Source: Thermodesulfobacteriota bacterium
GTDB taxonomy: Bacteria; Desulfobacterota; Anaeroferrophillalia; Anaeroferrophillales; Tharpellaceae
Direction: 5' to 3'
NCBI GenBank assembly: GCA_024762675.1
Contig: JANTGZ010000017.1
Location: 1 to 33,263, forward strand
Length of the DNA stretch: 33,263 nt
The notes under the pieces are model-generated. The model searched no databases. It was not told the DNA's origin and was given only the letters and a program-made list of their open reading frames with translations. Below, one piece after another: positions 9,819-25,690 of this stretch. A program made the translations under genes and the position numbers. The first letter of the stretch is position 1; every line of letters starts with the position of its first letter.

Positions 9819-11594
9819 ATGATATCCCGCAAGAATCTCATAAATAAAATAGTATTTCTGAAAAAACGCTTCGGTGTATCGGAGAACTATTTCCTCATCT
9901 TTCTGGCTGTTCTGGTTGGCATTCTGAGTGCCTTGGGTAACTGGGGACTGCGTTTTGCGATTGAATTTTTTCACGAATATATCTTTGTTGCCGGTTCCGG
10001 TCTGCTCGGTGTTGGTCAGGGAGGCTGGAAATTTTATCTGTTGCCGCTATTGCCGATGTTTGGAGGCCTTCTCCTGATTCCTCTGGAGATGGCTTTCCCC
10101 GGTTATGTTTGCGGCTACGGCCTGCCAAATTTTTTAAAAACCGTCAATTTCGGCCATGGCCGTCTGGCGCGGCGCAATATCTGGCTCAAGATCATCGCTC
10201 CGGCGATTACTATCGGCAGTGGCGGTTCCGCTGGTCAGGAAGGGCCGATTGCAACCATCGGCGGTGCCATTGGGCAGATGGTTGCCGGTTTCTTCTCTTT
10301 TAATCAGGCCCGGGTTCGATTGTTGATCGCCTGCGGGGTTGCCGGCGGCATTGCCGCGACCTTTAATGCCCCGATTGCCGGGGTCTTTTTTGCCCTGGAA
10401 ATAATCATGATGGGTGATATCGGCTTGGCCATCTTTACGCCGGTGGTCATTTCGGCCGCAACTTCAGTGGTTTTTACCCGCCTGATTTTTGGCGAGGAGA
10501 GCCTCTTTGCGGCACCGGCCTTTACCCTGGGGAGTTATTGGGAGCTCTTTGTCTATATGGCGATGGGGTTGGTGATTGGTGTCCTGGCGGCTTTTTTTGT
10601 CCGTTTTTTCTATCTCGTGCAGGACCTTTTTGCCAAATTGATTTTTCCCCGTTATTTGAAGCCGGCCCTCGGCGGCTTGCTGGTCGGGATGATCGGTCTC
10701 TTTTTCCCACAGGTAATGGGCGATGTCTATGAACATATGGGTCACGTTTTTTACCACTCTCATGTTTGGTATCTGGTGCTGGCTTTGGTTTTTATGAAGA
10801 TGTTGGCGACGTCAATTTGTCTCGGTTCAGGGGGTGCCGGTGGGCTTTTTGCGCCGATCATGTTTATGGGGGTATTGATTGGTGAAAGCTGTGGTCTGAT
10901 TGCCAGTCATCTCTTTCCTGAATTGGTGCTTTCGGCCGATGGTTACGCGGTCGTCGGTATCGGGGCCTTTCTTTCGGCCGTAACCCATGCTCCTTTGACC
11001 GCCATTTTTCTGGCCTATGAATTGACCGGTAATTCACAGATTATCCTGCCAGCCATGTTTGCGACCGTGGTCGGTATCATGGTGGCCCGCAGTATTGAGC
11101 GGGAAGGGATTGATACTTTCGGTCTGGCTCGTGAAGGGATCCATCTTGAAGATGGTCGGGAAGTTAATCTTTTGCGTTCAATCAAGGTTGGCGAGGTTAT
11201 GTATCGTGGTTCTCTGGAGACAATTGCGGAAACTATGAAACTTAAATCACTGCTCCAGTTTCTGCCGAGATCTCGTAAGACCACTTTCCCGGTGGTAGAT
11301 GCCGAGGGTTTGCTGAGCGGGATCTTGAGTATTCAAGATCTGCGCGAACTGATTTACGAGGAGGGGCTCGAAGACCTTATTGTTGCCAAGGAGCTGGCCC
11401 GGGATAAGGTTTTGACCGTGACCGCCCAAGAGAACCTTAATGACGCCATGCAGAAGATCGGTTCACGAAATATCGACTATCTGCCGGTAGTTGCCGATGA
11501 TAACCCGCGTCGTCTGGTCGGCATGGTTTCACGCCAAGATATAATCGCAGCCTATAATCGCAGCCTGCTGGAACGGGAACTACCGGGACATTAG
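9819..11594 (+). CDS. ClC-family chloride channel/transporter with C-terminal CBS pair
   Basis: A 591-residue ClC membrane protein followed by two CBS domains. The ClC part spans about residues 25-430 with many hydrophobic helices. The second signature is SGGSAGQEGP at about 134-143, and its Glu141 corresponds to the gating glutamate kept in Cl-/H+ exchangers. The third signature is GGLFAPIMF. The first signature, normally GSGIP, reads GYGLP at 99-103. The CBS pair begins at about residue 457 (VGEVMYRG) and ends near 585, and probably binds an adenine nucleotide. It lies eight bases after glmS and may be co-transcribed, although no functional link is evident. Whether it is a channel or an exchanger cannot be settled from sequence. 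Confidence 0.92.
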   Translation: MISRKNLINKIVFLKKRFGVSENYFLIFLAVLVGILSALGNWGLRFAIEFFHEYIFVAGSGLLGVGQGGWKFYLLPLLPMFGGLLLIPLEMAFPGYVCGYGLPNFLKTVNFGHGRLARRNIWLKIIAPAITIGSGGSAGQEGPIATIGGAIGQMVAGFFSFNQARVRLLIACGVAGGIAATFNAPIAGVFFALEIIMMGDIGLAIFTPVVISAATSVVFTRLIFGEESLFAAPAFTLGSYWELFVYMAMGLVIGVLAAFFVRFFYLVQDLFAKLIFPRYLKPALGGLLVGMIGLFFPQVMGDVYEHMGHVFYHSHVWYLVLALVFMKMLATSICLGSGGAGGLFAPIMFMGVLIGESCGLIASHLFPELVLSADGYAVVGIGAFLSAVTHAPLTAIFLAYELTGNSQIILPAMFATVVGIMVARSIEREGIDTFGLAREGIHLEDGREVNLLRSIKVGEVMYRGSLETIAETMKLKSLLQFLPRSRKTTFPVVDAEGLLSGILSIQDLRELIYEEGLEDLIVAKELARDKVLTVTAQENLNDAMQKIGSRNIDYLPVVADDNPRRLVGMVSRQDIIAAYNRSLLERELPGH

Positions 11595-22503: not shown

Positions 22504-23430
22504 ATGCTTGCTGCCATTCTAGATCAATCTTCCCTTTTTCTTCAGCAACTGGTTAACGGTATAACCTTGGGGAGTATCTACGCCCTGATTGCCGTCGGTT
22601 ATACGATGGTCTATGGGGTCATTCAGTTGATAAATTTCGCCCATGGTGAGATTTATATGATGGGGGCCTTTCTCAGCTTTTCCCTGCTCTCCGGTTTTTT
22701 TGGGTTCGGATTGCCTTTCGGTCTGGCCGTAGCCGTATCCGTATTGGTCTGCGCCCTGGCTGGAATTTTACTAGATGTTGTAGCCTACCGGCCTCTGCGC
22801 CGAGCTCCCCGGTTGGCAGCTCTAATCACAGCAATCGGCATGTCTATTTTCCTCCAGAATCTGGCCCTCCTGATCTGGGGGGGGCAGATTCAGTCCTTTC
22901 CCCAAAACGCTATTCCTGCTCTTCTTTCAGAACCGGCATTACAGCTTGGTGATGTGGTAATCAGCTGGTTGCAGGTGGTCATTCTATCGACAGCAATCTT
23001 TTTGATGCTGGCCTTACATTTGATTGTTCATTATACTAGAATCGGACGGGCTATGCGGGCCATCTCCCAGGACAAGACGGCAGCATCCCTGATGGGGGTT
23101 AATGTCGACCGAGTTGTATCCTATACCTTTGCTATAGGATCCGGTCTTGGCGGGGTGGCGGGGATTCTGGTCGGGCTCTACTATAATGCCGTCTATCCGA
23201 CGATGGGTTATTTTGCCGGAATCAAAGCTTTTGCCGCAGCCGTGCTTGGCGGCATTGGTAGTATTCCCGGGGCTATTTTGGGGGGAGGTATTTTGGGCCT
23301 GGCCGAAGTTTTCGGCGGAGGTTATATCTCCTCTTCCTATAGCAATGGTATTGCCTATGCCGTGATGATTCTGGTTATTCTGGTCAAACCAACCGGGCTT
23401 TTTGGACGGCATCTTCGAGATAAGGCGTGA
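22504..23430 (+). CDS. livH: Branched-chain amino acid ABC transporter permease LivH
   Basis: A 308-residue inner-membrane permease with about eight hydrophobic helices. The N-terminal LFLQQLVNGITLGSIYALIAVGYTMVYGVIQLINFAHGE region and the LMGVNVDRVVSYTFAIGSGLGG cytoplasmic loop are diagnostic of LivH. The ATG lies five bases after livK with no obvious ribosome site, so it may depend on coupling. The gene ends one base before a heptamer repeat array. Confidence 0.95.
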   Translation: MLAAILDQSSLFLQQLVNGITLGSIYALIAVGYTMVYGVIQLINFAHGEIYMMGAFLSFSLLSGFFGFGLPFGLAVAVSVLVCALAGILLDVVAYRPLRRAPRLAALITAIGMSIFLQNLALLIWGGQIQSFPQNAIPALLSEPALQLGDVVISWLQVVILSTAIFLMLALHLIVHYTRIGRAMRAISQDKTAASLMGVNVDRVVSYTFAIGSGLGGVAGILVGLYYNAVYPTMGYFAGIKAFAAAVLGGIGSIPGAILGGGILGLAEVFGGGYISSSYSNGIAYAVMILVILVKPTGLFGRHLRDKA

Positions 23431-23431
23431 T

Positions 23432-23474
23432 ATGAAAGGATGAAGGATGAAGGATGAAGGATGAAGGATGAAGG
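23432..23474 (+). repeat. Tandem heptamer array ATGAAGG between livH and livM
   Basis: A degenerate first copy (ATGAAAGG, 23432-23439) is followed by five perfect copies of ATGAAGG at 23440-23474. Each junction reads AAGGATG, so the array contains a series of ribosome-site-like and start-like sequences in changing frames. The unit length of seven makes it prone to slippage changes that do not affect a coding frame here. Confidence 0.9.
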
Positions 23475-23485
23475 ATGTACGTTTT

Positions 23486-23513
23486 ACTGCCTACTGAAGA
23501 CTGGTGACTGACC
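23486..23513 (+). repeat. Degenerate heptamer array ACTGNNN before livM
   Basis: Four consecutive seven-base units, ACTGCCT, ACTGAAG, ACTGGTG and ACTGACC, run from 23486 to 23513. They stop one base before the livM ATG, so they occupy the place where a ribosome site should be. GGTG inside the third unit is the only weak candidate. Confidence 0.7.
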
Positions 23514-23514
23514 C

Positions 23515-24471
23515 ATGCATTTAGACGATCGTCTTTTTACTGATAAAAAATTGTACCTGCCTCTGTTGGCCGCCGTCCTGGTTCTGCCCTGGTTACCAAT
23601 GGGGATTGCCGGACCTTATGTCTTAAGGGTTGCAACCCTGACTCTGGTCTATATGGTTCTCGCCTTAGGGCTTAATGTGGTGCCTGGGTTTACCGGCCTG
23701 CTCGATCTTGGGTATGTCGGTTTCTTTGGTCTGGGGGCCTATACTGCCGGTCTTTTGACGGTCCACTATCAATGGAGTTTGTGGTTGGTGCTGCCCCTGG
23801 CAGCCCTTAATGGTGCTTTCTGGGGGATTTTGCGCGGGGCCCCGACCTTAAGGCTCTCTGATGACTATTTTGCAATTGTTACCTTCGGTTTTTCAGAACT
23901 GATTATCCTGGTTATTCGTAATGAGCTTTGGTTAACCCGTGGTCCCATGGGAGTACCGGGTATCGCTCAGCCTGATATTTTTGGAAAAGTTCTCGACCAG
24001 CCCTGGCAGGCTTTTTATCTGATTCTCTTTTTCCTGTTCCTGGTATTGTGGGTGGTGGTCAAGATCCGCAGCTCACGTCTGGGCCGAGCCTGGTTTGCTG
24101 TGCGTGAGGATGAGATTGCGGCAGAGTGCGTTGGTGTCAACGTCGCCAGCTATAAGATTATCGCTTTTGCCTTAAGTGCGGCGATCGGGGCTTTGGCTGG
24201 GGCTTTTTATGCCCGCTGGTTTCGTTTTATTCATCCCGATATGTTTAAATTCTGGGAATCAATTCTCATTCTCTGCCTCATTGTTTTTGGTGGTATGGGA
24301 AGTATAACTGGAGCTCTGCTGGGAGCTCTGATTCTGATTCCGTTGACTGAGCTTTTGCGGATTGTTCTGCCGGCTGAACTTAGCAACGCCCGTTATCTGC
24401 TCTTTGGATTGATTATAGTCTTCATGATGCGTTGGCGGCCGGCTGGACTTTTACCCGTTGAAAAAGAGTGA
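23515..24471 (+). CDS. livM: Branched-chain amino acid ABC transporter permease LivM
   Basis: A 318-residue permease, partner of LivH. The LGLNVVPGFTGLLDLGYVGFFGLGAYTAGLL region (given here by its landmarks LGLN and GAYTAG), TLRLSDDYFAIVTFGF, GPMGVPGI and AECVGVNVASYKI are family signatures. It has about nine hydrophobic helices and normal length. The start codon directly follows an ACTGNNN heptamer array and has no good ribosome site. The end is 11 bases before the preferred livG start. Confidence 0.95.
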   Translation: MHLDDRLFTDKKLYLPLLAAVLVLPWLPMGIAGPYVLRVATLTLVYMVLALGLNVVPGFTGLLDLGYVGFFGLGAYTAGLLTVHYQWSLWLVLPLAALNGAFWGILRGAPTLRLSDDYFAIVTFGFSELIILVIRNELWLTRGPMGVPGIAQPDIFGKVLDQPWQAFYLILFFLFLVLWVVVKIRSSRLGRAWFAVREDEIAAECVGVNVASYKIIAFALSAAIGALAGAFYARWFRFIHPDMFKFWESILILCLIVFGGMGSITGALLGALILIPLTELLRIVLPAELSNARYLLFGLIIVFMMRWRPAGLLPVEKE

Positions 24472-24481
24472 AGGTTTTTTA

Positions 24482-25690
24482 ATGGCCGGTCGTAAAACAG
24501 GTGAGATCCTTCTGAAGGCTCACAATGTGGTGAAGAAGTTTGGTGGTCTGACGGCTGTCAAAGAGGTCTCACTAGATGTTCGGGCGGGAGAGATTGTTGG
24601 CCTTATCGGACCCAACGGAGCCGGTAAGACCACTTTTTTTAACTGTCTCAACGCTATTGCAGTACCGACTTCGGGTGAGATTACCTTTGCCGGTCACAGC
24701 CTTGTCAGCCAGATCAGTCCGGCTACCAGTCGCCTGGTTTTTCGATCAGGACTTCTTTTTGCCCTGCTTTCTTTGCTCTGGTTGCCCCTGGTTTTAGGGG
24801 TTGTCTGGCCGGAGACCTTCTTTCGGCTGGAAGCGGTTCTTGCGCTTTCAATTCTGGCTCTCTTCCGTATCTACCTGCTGCGCCCTTTAAGTCTCTTTCG
24901 GCCCTGGAGCAGGCTTTTGCTGATTATCTTTGTTCTGGTTGACGGCATTTGTGCGGTCAACTGGCTCTGGCGTAGCCCCGAGTTTTCAGAGGTCAGTTTT
25001 TTTAATCTTTTTCCTTTCTACCCACTGCTTGTTCCGGGATCCCTTTTACTTTTGCTTGCAAGCCTGGTTCTTCTGTTGTTGTTTAATCTGCCCAGGGTCA
25101 AAGAAGCTTTTGGTCAACACTTAAGGGCCGATGTTATCACCCGCCTGGGTATTGGTAGAACCTTTCAGAACATTCGCCTTTTTTCTTCCCTTTCGGCACT
25201 TGATAATGTCAAGCTGGGTCGCCATTGCCGCACCCGGGCCAACTTTTTCGGGATTGTTCTGGCCCTGCCTCAGGCTCGTAAAGAGGAGCTGGATTCAGCT
25301 GAGAAAGCGGCTGAATGTTTGAGGTTTGTCGGTCTTGGTAAACAGCTAGTAAGTCGGGCCGGTTCTCTGCCCTATGGTGATCAACGCCGTCTGGAGATTG
25401 CCCGGGCTCTGGCTACCGAACCTAAACTGTTACTCTTAGATGAACCGGCGGCCGGGATGAATCCGACCGAGTCAGCCGAGCTCATTACCCTGGTTCGCAG
25501 AATCAGCCAGGCCGGCATAGCAGTTCTGATTATCGAGCATGATATGAAGGTGATAATGAATTTGGCCGACCGAATCTATGTTCTTGATCATGGCGAATTG
25601 ATAGCTTCCGGAACCCCGGTCGAAGTTCGCAGCAACGCTAAAGTGATTGAAGCATATTTAGGAGCTCAGCATGCCGCTTCTGAAGCTTAA
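24482..25690 (+). CDS. livG: LivG-type ABC ATPase with an inserted four-helix membrane segment
   Basis: A 402-residue ATPase of the liv system, against about 255 for usual LivG. From ATG 24482 (GAAGG seven bases upstream; a TTG at 24458 would add eight residues), Walker A GPNGAGKTT is at 43-51. The Q-loop RTFQNIRLF has Gln at 229, and the signature LPYGDQRRLEIARAL begins at 296. Walker B LLLLDEP ends at 322 and the H-loop His is 353. Between GEITFAGHSL and ITRLGIGRTFQ, where LivG normally has some 15 residues, lie about 135 extra residues. They hold four hydrophobic helices at about 89-109, 115-133, 143-163 and 179-202, linked by short Arg- or Pro-rich turns. Four crossings would return both halves of the ATPase to the cytoplasm. 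All catalytic motifs remain intact, so it is probably active; the role of the insert is unknown. Confidence 0.92.
   Translation: MAGRKTGEILLKAHNVVKKFGGLTAVKEVSLDVRAGEIVGLIGPNGAGKTTFFNCLNAIAVPTSGEITFAGHSLVSQISPATSRLVFRSGLLFALLSLLWLPLVLGVVWPETFFRLEAVLALSILALFRIYLLRPLSLFRPWSRLLLIIFVLVDGICAVNWLWRSPEFSEVSFFNLFPFYPLLVPGSLLLLLASLVLLLLFNLPRVKEAFGQHLRADVITRLGIGRTFQNIRLFSSLSALDNVKLGRHCRTRANFFGIVLALPQARKEELDSAEKAAECLRFVGLGKQLVSRAGSLPYGDQRRLEIARALATEPKLLLLDEPAAGMNPTESAELITLVRRISQAGIAVLIIEHDMKVIMNLADRIYVLDHGELIASGTPVEVRSNAKVIEAYLGAQHAASEA

Follow-up and report, generated by a model that had tools for sequence, protein, structure and literature searches.

Heptanucleotide arrays between livH and livM

The gap between two branched-chain amino acid permease genes, livH and livM, contains two different arrays of seven-base units, and it raises the question of whether such DNA controls livM or belongs to a broader class of repeats. 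The window analysed here is the whole stretch of 33,263 nucleotides that carries the two genes. The genes around the gap are named as a branched-chain amino acid ABC transporter set (top NCBIfam matches, all under the curated cut-offs); for livH the top match is PRK10740 LivH (1.5e-81). The livH stop codon TGA occupies 23428-23430 and the livM ATG lies at 23515, leaving 84 nt between the genes (Table 1).

In order, these 84 nt consist of a T, ATGAAAGG, five copies of ATGAAGG, an ATG, TACGTTTT, the units ACTGCCT ACTGAAG ACTGGTG ACTGACC, and a C. Thus, the six ATGAAGG copies that had been described, one with an extra A, are present as ATGAAAGG and five perfect units, and the four ACTGNNN units do end one base before livM (23486-23513, then C and the ATG). 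The further statement that the whole gap is periodic at seven bases holds for the two arrays and not for the first T or the 8-nt spacer. Tandem Repeats Finder (TRF) reports the first array as (AAGGATG)x6.0 at 23436-23477, with 100% matches and a score of 84, the runner-up among the seven rows for the window scoring 54. The longest run of exact period-7 matches in the window is 35 bases, as against 10 or fewer in 100 order-2 shuffles, and ACTGNNNx4 occurs once as against a mean of 0.0 over 200 shuffles; neither array is expected by chance in the window. Elsewhere in the window, a 13-base repeat, TATAATCGCAGCC, is present in about two perfect copies (11540-11566).

Table 1. Coordinates in the window of the features in and around the livH-livM gap.
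Feature	Position	Strand	Remark
livH-type branched-chain amino acid ABC permease	22504..23430	+	upstream of the gap
Imperfect first unit ATGAAAGG	23432..23439	+	carries the extra A
Family A array (AAGGATG)x6	23436..23477	+	adjoins the livH stop; ATGAAGG strand reads away from livH
Final array-initiated mini-ORF MYVLLPTEDW*	23475..23507	+	ends 7 nt before livM; possible reinitiation route
Spacer TACGTTTT	23478..23485	+	8 nt; separates the two arrays
Family B arm ACTGCCT ACTGAAG ACTGGTG ACTGACC	23486..23513	+	ends 1 nt before the livM start
GGTGA	23503..23507	+	-12 to -8 of livM; sole Shine-Dalgarno-like match found before livM
livM-type permease, intact	23515..24471	+	86-93% identical in 8 congeners

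The same heptamers across the host genome

The original prediction treated the gap as a device by which copy-number change could tune LivM relative to LivH, and suggested counting the arrays genome-wide. That count gives 11 ATGAAGG arrays and 41 ACTGNNN clusters in the host genome (G000). The former derive from 40 matches to ATGAAGGx2, 18 on the forward and 22 on the reverse strand, against none in a reversed control; our own grouping of these matches yields the livH-livM array and 10 others. The latter derive from 96 matches to ACTGNNNx3 on both strands, with 20 in a reversed control; by our reasoning, some of these are the same arrays counted again, since TGAC lies within ACTGAC units and recurs every seven bases. 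The consensus of the ACTG units is ACTG-A/G-C-N, also written ACTG-R-Y-N, and a third family, AACTTTR, has 13 matches (controls, 0). Both heptamers of the gap are therefore found at dozens of other sites on both strands, which lends no support to a device specific to livM. Two contigs (L089, 1-57, and L090, 1-74) start within ATGAAGG arrays, and the assembly may therefore have been interrupted at the longest of them.

The seven-base period extends beyond these families. In a 400-kb sample (20 stretches of 20 kb, picked by contig number), tandem runs of 11 or more matched bases at period 7 numbered eight in intergenic and none in coding DNA, and all other periods from 3 to 20 together gave two intergenic runs. 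Self-match of intergenic DNA peaked locally at lags 7 (0.2775) and 14 (0.2752); the remaining lags between 4 and 24 gave 0.262-0.272, with no rise at lag 21 (433-kb set, window included). From the strong runs and the peaks at lags 7 and 14, we conclude that period 7 is a general trait of intergenic DNA in this genome.

Position and strand polarity of the arrays

The arrays are neither placed nor oriented at random. The strand that carries CAGT or ATGAAGG points away from the adjoining ORF edge regardless of gene direction, a polarity obeyed by 37 of 39 intergenic ACTG arms in the host genome, with gene edges taken from a simple self-made gene caller trained on this genome only. Those edges comprise 17 starts and 20 stops, which makes gene direction irrelevant to polarity. 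The same orientation was found for 19 of 24 arms in a congener (G008) and for 16 of 17 in 20 stretches drawn from other families (six genomes). When only unpaired arms are counted, the figures are 24/26, 12/13 and 12/13, respectively. These counts exclude arms inside called ORFs (8, 2 and 6) and arms without an edge (0, 1 and 4), and 40 of the 41 ACTG clusters were examined (C176:2249 was left out). Neighbouring arms of the form CAGT...ACTG were divergent in 16 cases and convergent in none. The mean distance from ACTG arm to ORF edge in the host genome is 13.9 nt, with 56.8 nt expected under uniform placement.

All six scorable intergenic ATGAAGG arrays follow the polarity (three arrays inside ORF ends and two at contig ends were excluded), and five of the six adjoin gene 3' ends and not starts, a further point against tuning specific to livM. 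Nine intergenic period-7 arrays of several heptamers from the 400-kb sample, three of them already in other counts and one without a left edge, all fit by our own reading. The strand reading away was the purine-richer one in eight of these nine; purine-richness was dropped as a general label for the polarity, since it fails at L172. In the livH-livM gap, the two sides carry unlike heptamers and both follow the rule.

A shared TTTT core was also considered and rejected. TTTT lies within 8 nt before the ACTG arm in 15 of 47 cases in the host genome and 8 of 27 in G008, and in 1 of 27 in other families, where the AAAA control gave 2 (AAAA controls in the host and G008, 3/47 and 3). At L095:3075-3142, an ACTG arm runs straight into a strong stem followed by a T run, which resembles an intrinsic terminator.

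Arrays in congeners and across the phylum

The closest named relatives of the host are Candidatus Tharpella MAGs, which probably places it within that genus of Desulfobacterota. A close LivM ortholog was found in 8 of 12 congener genomes, and both arrays are absent from the livH-livM gap in all eight. The other four assemblies (G003, G007, G008 and G009), which include the nearest relative G003, are incomplete and hold no close ortholog. Measured to the aligned start, the eight congener gaps (L009-L014, L029, L038) are 17, 14, 9, 5, 26, 9, 26 and 2 nt long. Comparison with relatives, which had been proposed as a check on copy number, thus showed a difference in gap length, 84 nt versus 2-26 nt, in congeners that carry no array whose copies could be compared. 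Because both heptamers are dispersed and eight congeners are array-free, a livM-specific device is not favoured. In a distant relative (L034), the livH-livM gap holds a 7-nt-like ACTAAAA array directly before livM.

Within the genus, ACTGNNNx4 has 48 matches in the host genome and 97 in G008 (controls, 7 and 18), 3 in G003, 2 in G005, and none in the remaining 9 of 13 genomes; ATGAAGGx3 was matched a single time in each of three congeners out of 12. In phylum samples, ACTGACSx3 was found in 18 of 297 genomes (reversed control, 10 of 297) and AAGGATGx3 in 5 of 247 (control, 0), and several ACTG-rich genomes fall in other families. The abundance of the arrays is patchy and not simply inherited.

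Two other orthologous gaps were compared across the genus. Both loci were chosen for having an array in the host genome, so they demonstrate that turnover happens and not how often. Upstream of a recombinase gene that we named Xer-type from its protein sequence, the host carries four and a half AACTTTR units, and G003, whose protein is 96% identical, has a short remnant, degenerate and about two and a half units long. At the same place, G008 carries four ACTGACC/ACTGACT units and G011 about four and a half units shifting from AACCCAG to AACTTTG. Three heptamer types thus occur at this gap (L238-L250) among four genus genomes, the host included; eight further congeners are array-free there and G012 is cut off. 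The last residues encoded by this recombinase gene in the host come from an ATGAAGG-type array at its 3' end (L091:3399-3437), and a degenerate array is present in G008, the other congeners stopping about 10 residues earlier. The dxr-rseP gap holds two-armed ACTG-type arrays in the host, G008 and G005 (G005 by eye). No array is present in the gaps of 12 nt in G003, which is the nearest relative for this gene, and of 13 nt in G007; G001 and G011 have longer gaps with no two-armed ACTG-type array in the 150 nt inspected.

Comparison with known heptamer repeats

Among the matches listed for literature searches on bacterial, Deltaproteobacteria and intercistronic heptamer repeats, none concerned the repeats of this genus. 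The STRRs of cyanobacteria are likewise degenerate heptamers and lie in intercistronic gaps that vary within conserved operons; their heptamers and phylum are different.

Closest in form are the TAACTGA arrays of marine Beggiatoaceae. Their description reports that they mostly face start codons, usually without a Shine-Dalgarno sequence, that their commonest position in BOGUAY ends 1 nt before the start, that one inverted repeat occurs in 170 sets, and that they were proposed to be bound by a ribosomal or an RNA-binding protein (PMC4679880). As far as that description goes, the arrays here share with them the 7-nt unit, a mostly intergenic location and a patchy distribution among relatives, and the livM arm is likewise in the sense direction, 1 nt before a start without an AGGAGGT 4-mer. 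TAACTGA is also a rotation of ACTGATA, which lies within the ACTG-R-Y-N consensus of the host genome, although none of the four units before livM is exactly TAACTGA. In contrast to the Beggiatoaceae sets as described (PMC4679880), the arrays here are degenerate, about equally frequent at stop edges, and in several gaps form two inverted arms; moreover, the livH-livM gap is shared with a second heptamer, and the host belongs to the Desulfobacterota. The present arrays appear to be of this kind, with degenerate units and both types of edge.

The GGGAATC and GGGGA(C/T)T heptamers of Xanthomonas and Nostoc are over-represented in non-coding DNA near ORF edges, with the G-rich strand nearer the 5' neighbouring ORF in any orientation, and inverted repeat pairs are mentioned as well (PMC4692102). 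This polarity rule is the same as the one found here. Those heptamers, however, contain GGG tracts and fold into quadruplexes in vitro (PMC4692102), whereas AAGGATG contains GG only and lacks four GGG tracts, and the minus strand of the gap has a single GGG (23512-23514). They are also reported at the same place in two species in 83% of cases (PMC4692102), unlike the two gaps compared here, which vary in array presence and heptamer between congeners.

Among long simple sequence repeats (LSSRs), heptanucleotides form the most frequent class in the majority of genomes studied, and slippage was proposed as their cause (Mrazek 2007, as summarized in PMC4679880). Here too, 7-mer runs exceed chance, and period 7 is the commonest long period and mostly intergenic; the difference is that the summary of that class contains no polarity rule or gap with two heptamers (PMC4679880).

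Origin and role of the arrays

We consider it likely that the livH-livM gap is a local case of dispersed heptanucleotide arrays of the LSSR, TAACTGA and GGGAATC kind. Each gene edge has an array of its own, the livH stop being followed by ATGAAGG units and the livM start preceded by ACTGNNN units, and this Tharpella-like genome carries such arrays throughout, for the most part next to ORF borders. Polymerase slippage, by duplicating 7 nt in tandem, is the probable source of the arrays and of changes in their length. Between livH and livM they most likely amount to filler that is tolerated and has no dedicated role in tuning. Tuning of LivM by slippage is possible but unsupported. Slippage by itself does not account for the spread of the arrays, whose heptamers turn up again at unrelated loci, nor does neutral slippage alone predict the non-random placement at ORF edges with fixed polarity.

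A more speculative proposal, to which we give rather little weight, is that one strand polarity is shared across unrelated heptamers and phyla, and that the heptamer at a fixed site can be swapped with the place and rough copy number kept. If true, a single directional array-writing process, and not sequence-specific regulation, would place and rewrite arrays, and the livH-livM gap would be a two-armed site whose arms have different heptamers. The repeat class is known but poorly understood, and the polarity and site turnover are unexplained yet repeatable. With filled, empty and heptamer-switched versions of gaps, the genus makes array origin and edge polarity testable. For livM, the striking intercistronic sequence is part of a genome-wide repeat class and should not yet be read as a control element.

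Translation of livM and alternative explanations

The gap had also been said to leave no ordinary ribosome site. Indeed no 4-mer of AGGAGGT was found before livM; GGTGA, however, is a candidate. By the same strict test, three of seven gaps checked in relatives (L009, L012, L013) also lack such a 4-mer, and AAGG is kept in two of these three. The gap RNA is less folded than its shuffles (z +1.75; other flanks, z +0.5), values on which a hairpin or terminator was rejected, and a scan of the window with Rfam (gathering thresholds) and a tRNA search gave no matches. We infer that livM is translated by coupling or reinitiation from livH or the array ORFs, or from GGTGA; on the filler reading, coupling to livH and/or initiation at the weak GGTGA is the probable route.

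Could the ATGAAGG array itself deliver ribosomes to livM? In a slippage-tunable relay, ribosomes leaving livH would be caught by AAGG and ATG and hop between mini-ORFs by ATGA-type reinitiation, with copy number setting the level. The proposed capture by AAGGATG is possible in layout, as AAGG sits 7 nt upstream of every gap ATG from the third onward, but the seven gap ATGs open ORFs of 3, 5, 5, 5, 16, 9 and 10 codons, and short ATG/TGA ORFs are an automatic consequence of the heptamer. The last three end at 23511, 23497 and 23507, thus 3, 17 and 7 nt short of livM, and the ACTGA units provide stops near the start. A same-strand start follows four of the six scorable ATGAAGG arrays at 40-150 nt (the window, 40; L092, 49; L088, 61; L087, 150), and none does so for the other two (L084 and L091 at 3001). 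Given that eight congeners manage without the array and that such arrays mainly adjoin stops, we regard a relay as improbable.

Regulation through the ACTGNNN arm, which before starts could be a candidate site for an RNA-binding or ribosomal protein by analogy with the TAACTGA proposal, seems to us equally improbable. The fit of ACTGATA to the consensus and the position 1 nt before the start, the commonest one in the BOGUAY sets as described (PMC4679880), agree with it. A Shine-Dalgarno 4-mer precedes 2 of 10 array-abutted starts in the host genome, against a background of 150 of 304, and none of 4 in other genomes; this shortage, at starts that we called ourselves, suggests a small, weak hint of an effect on initiation. 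The 4-mer is nonetheless kept at 4 of 9 such starts in G008, the heptamer type varies among congeners at the sole start-side gap compared across the genus, and the near-equal use of stops and starts by the arms is not predicted for a start-codon regulator.

Least probable of all is a mobile or REP-like palindrome that has here exchanged its left arm for ATGAAGG units: the divergent arms, the strong folding of some arms (z down to -10.2) and the presence or absence of the entire two-armed block at dxr-rseP are in its favour, but the livH-livM gap has no hairpin, and complementarity of arms is no higher within than between elements (permutation p 0.82, 0.79 and 1.0; n 7, 6 and 3). Permutation thus leaves a self-complementary unit with co-varying arms unsupported, although the G005 dxr-rseP arrays look matched by eye, and flanks opposite single arms are, if anything, less arm-like than the arms of other elements. 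A Y1/RAYT transposase was rejected as mobiliser, since PF01797 does not correlate with the arrays: it has no match in the array-rich G008 (68% complete), 3 in the host, and 6 and 5 in G011 and G001, both with no ACTGNNNx4.

Downstream of livM, the LivG-type ATPase of the same transporter set (window 24482-25690, 402 aa) has an inserted hydrophobic segment of about 150 aa behind the Walker A region (residues 73-223), and this segment is extra to the 255-aa LivG model. By tblastn, the insert is present in 26 of 75 LivM loci, at 66-83% identity in six congener records and at about 25-34% in 20 other loci, mostly from Deltaproteobacteria.
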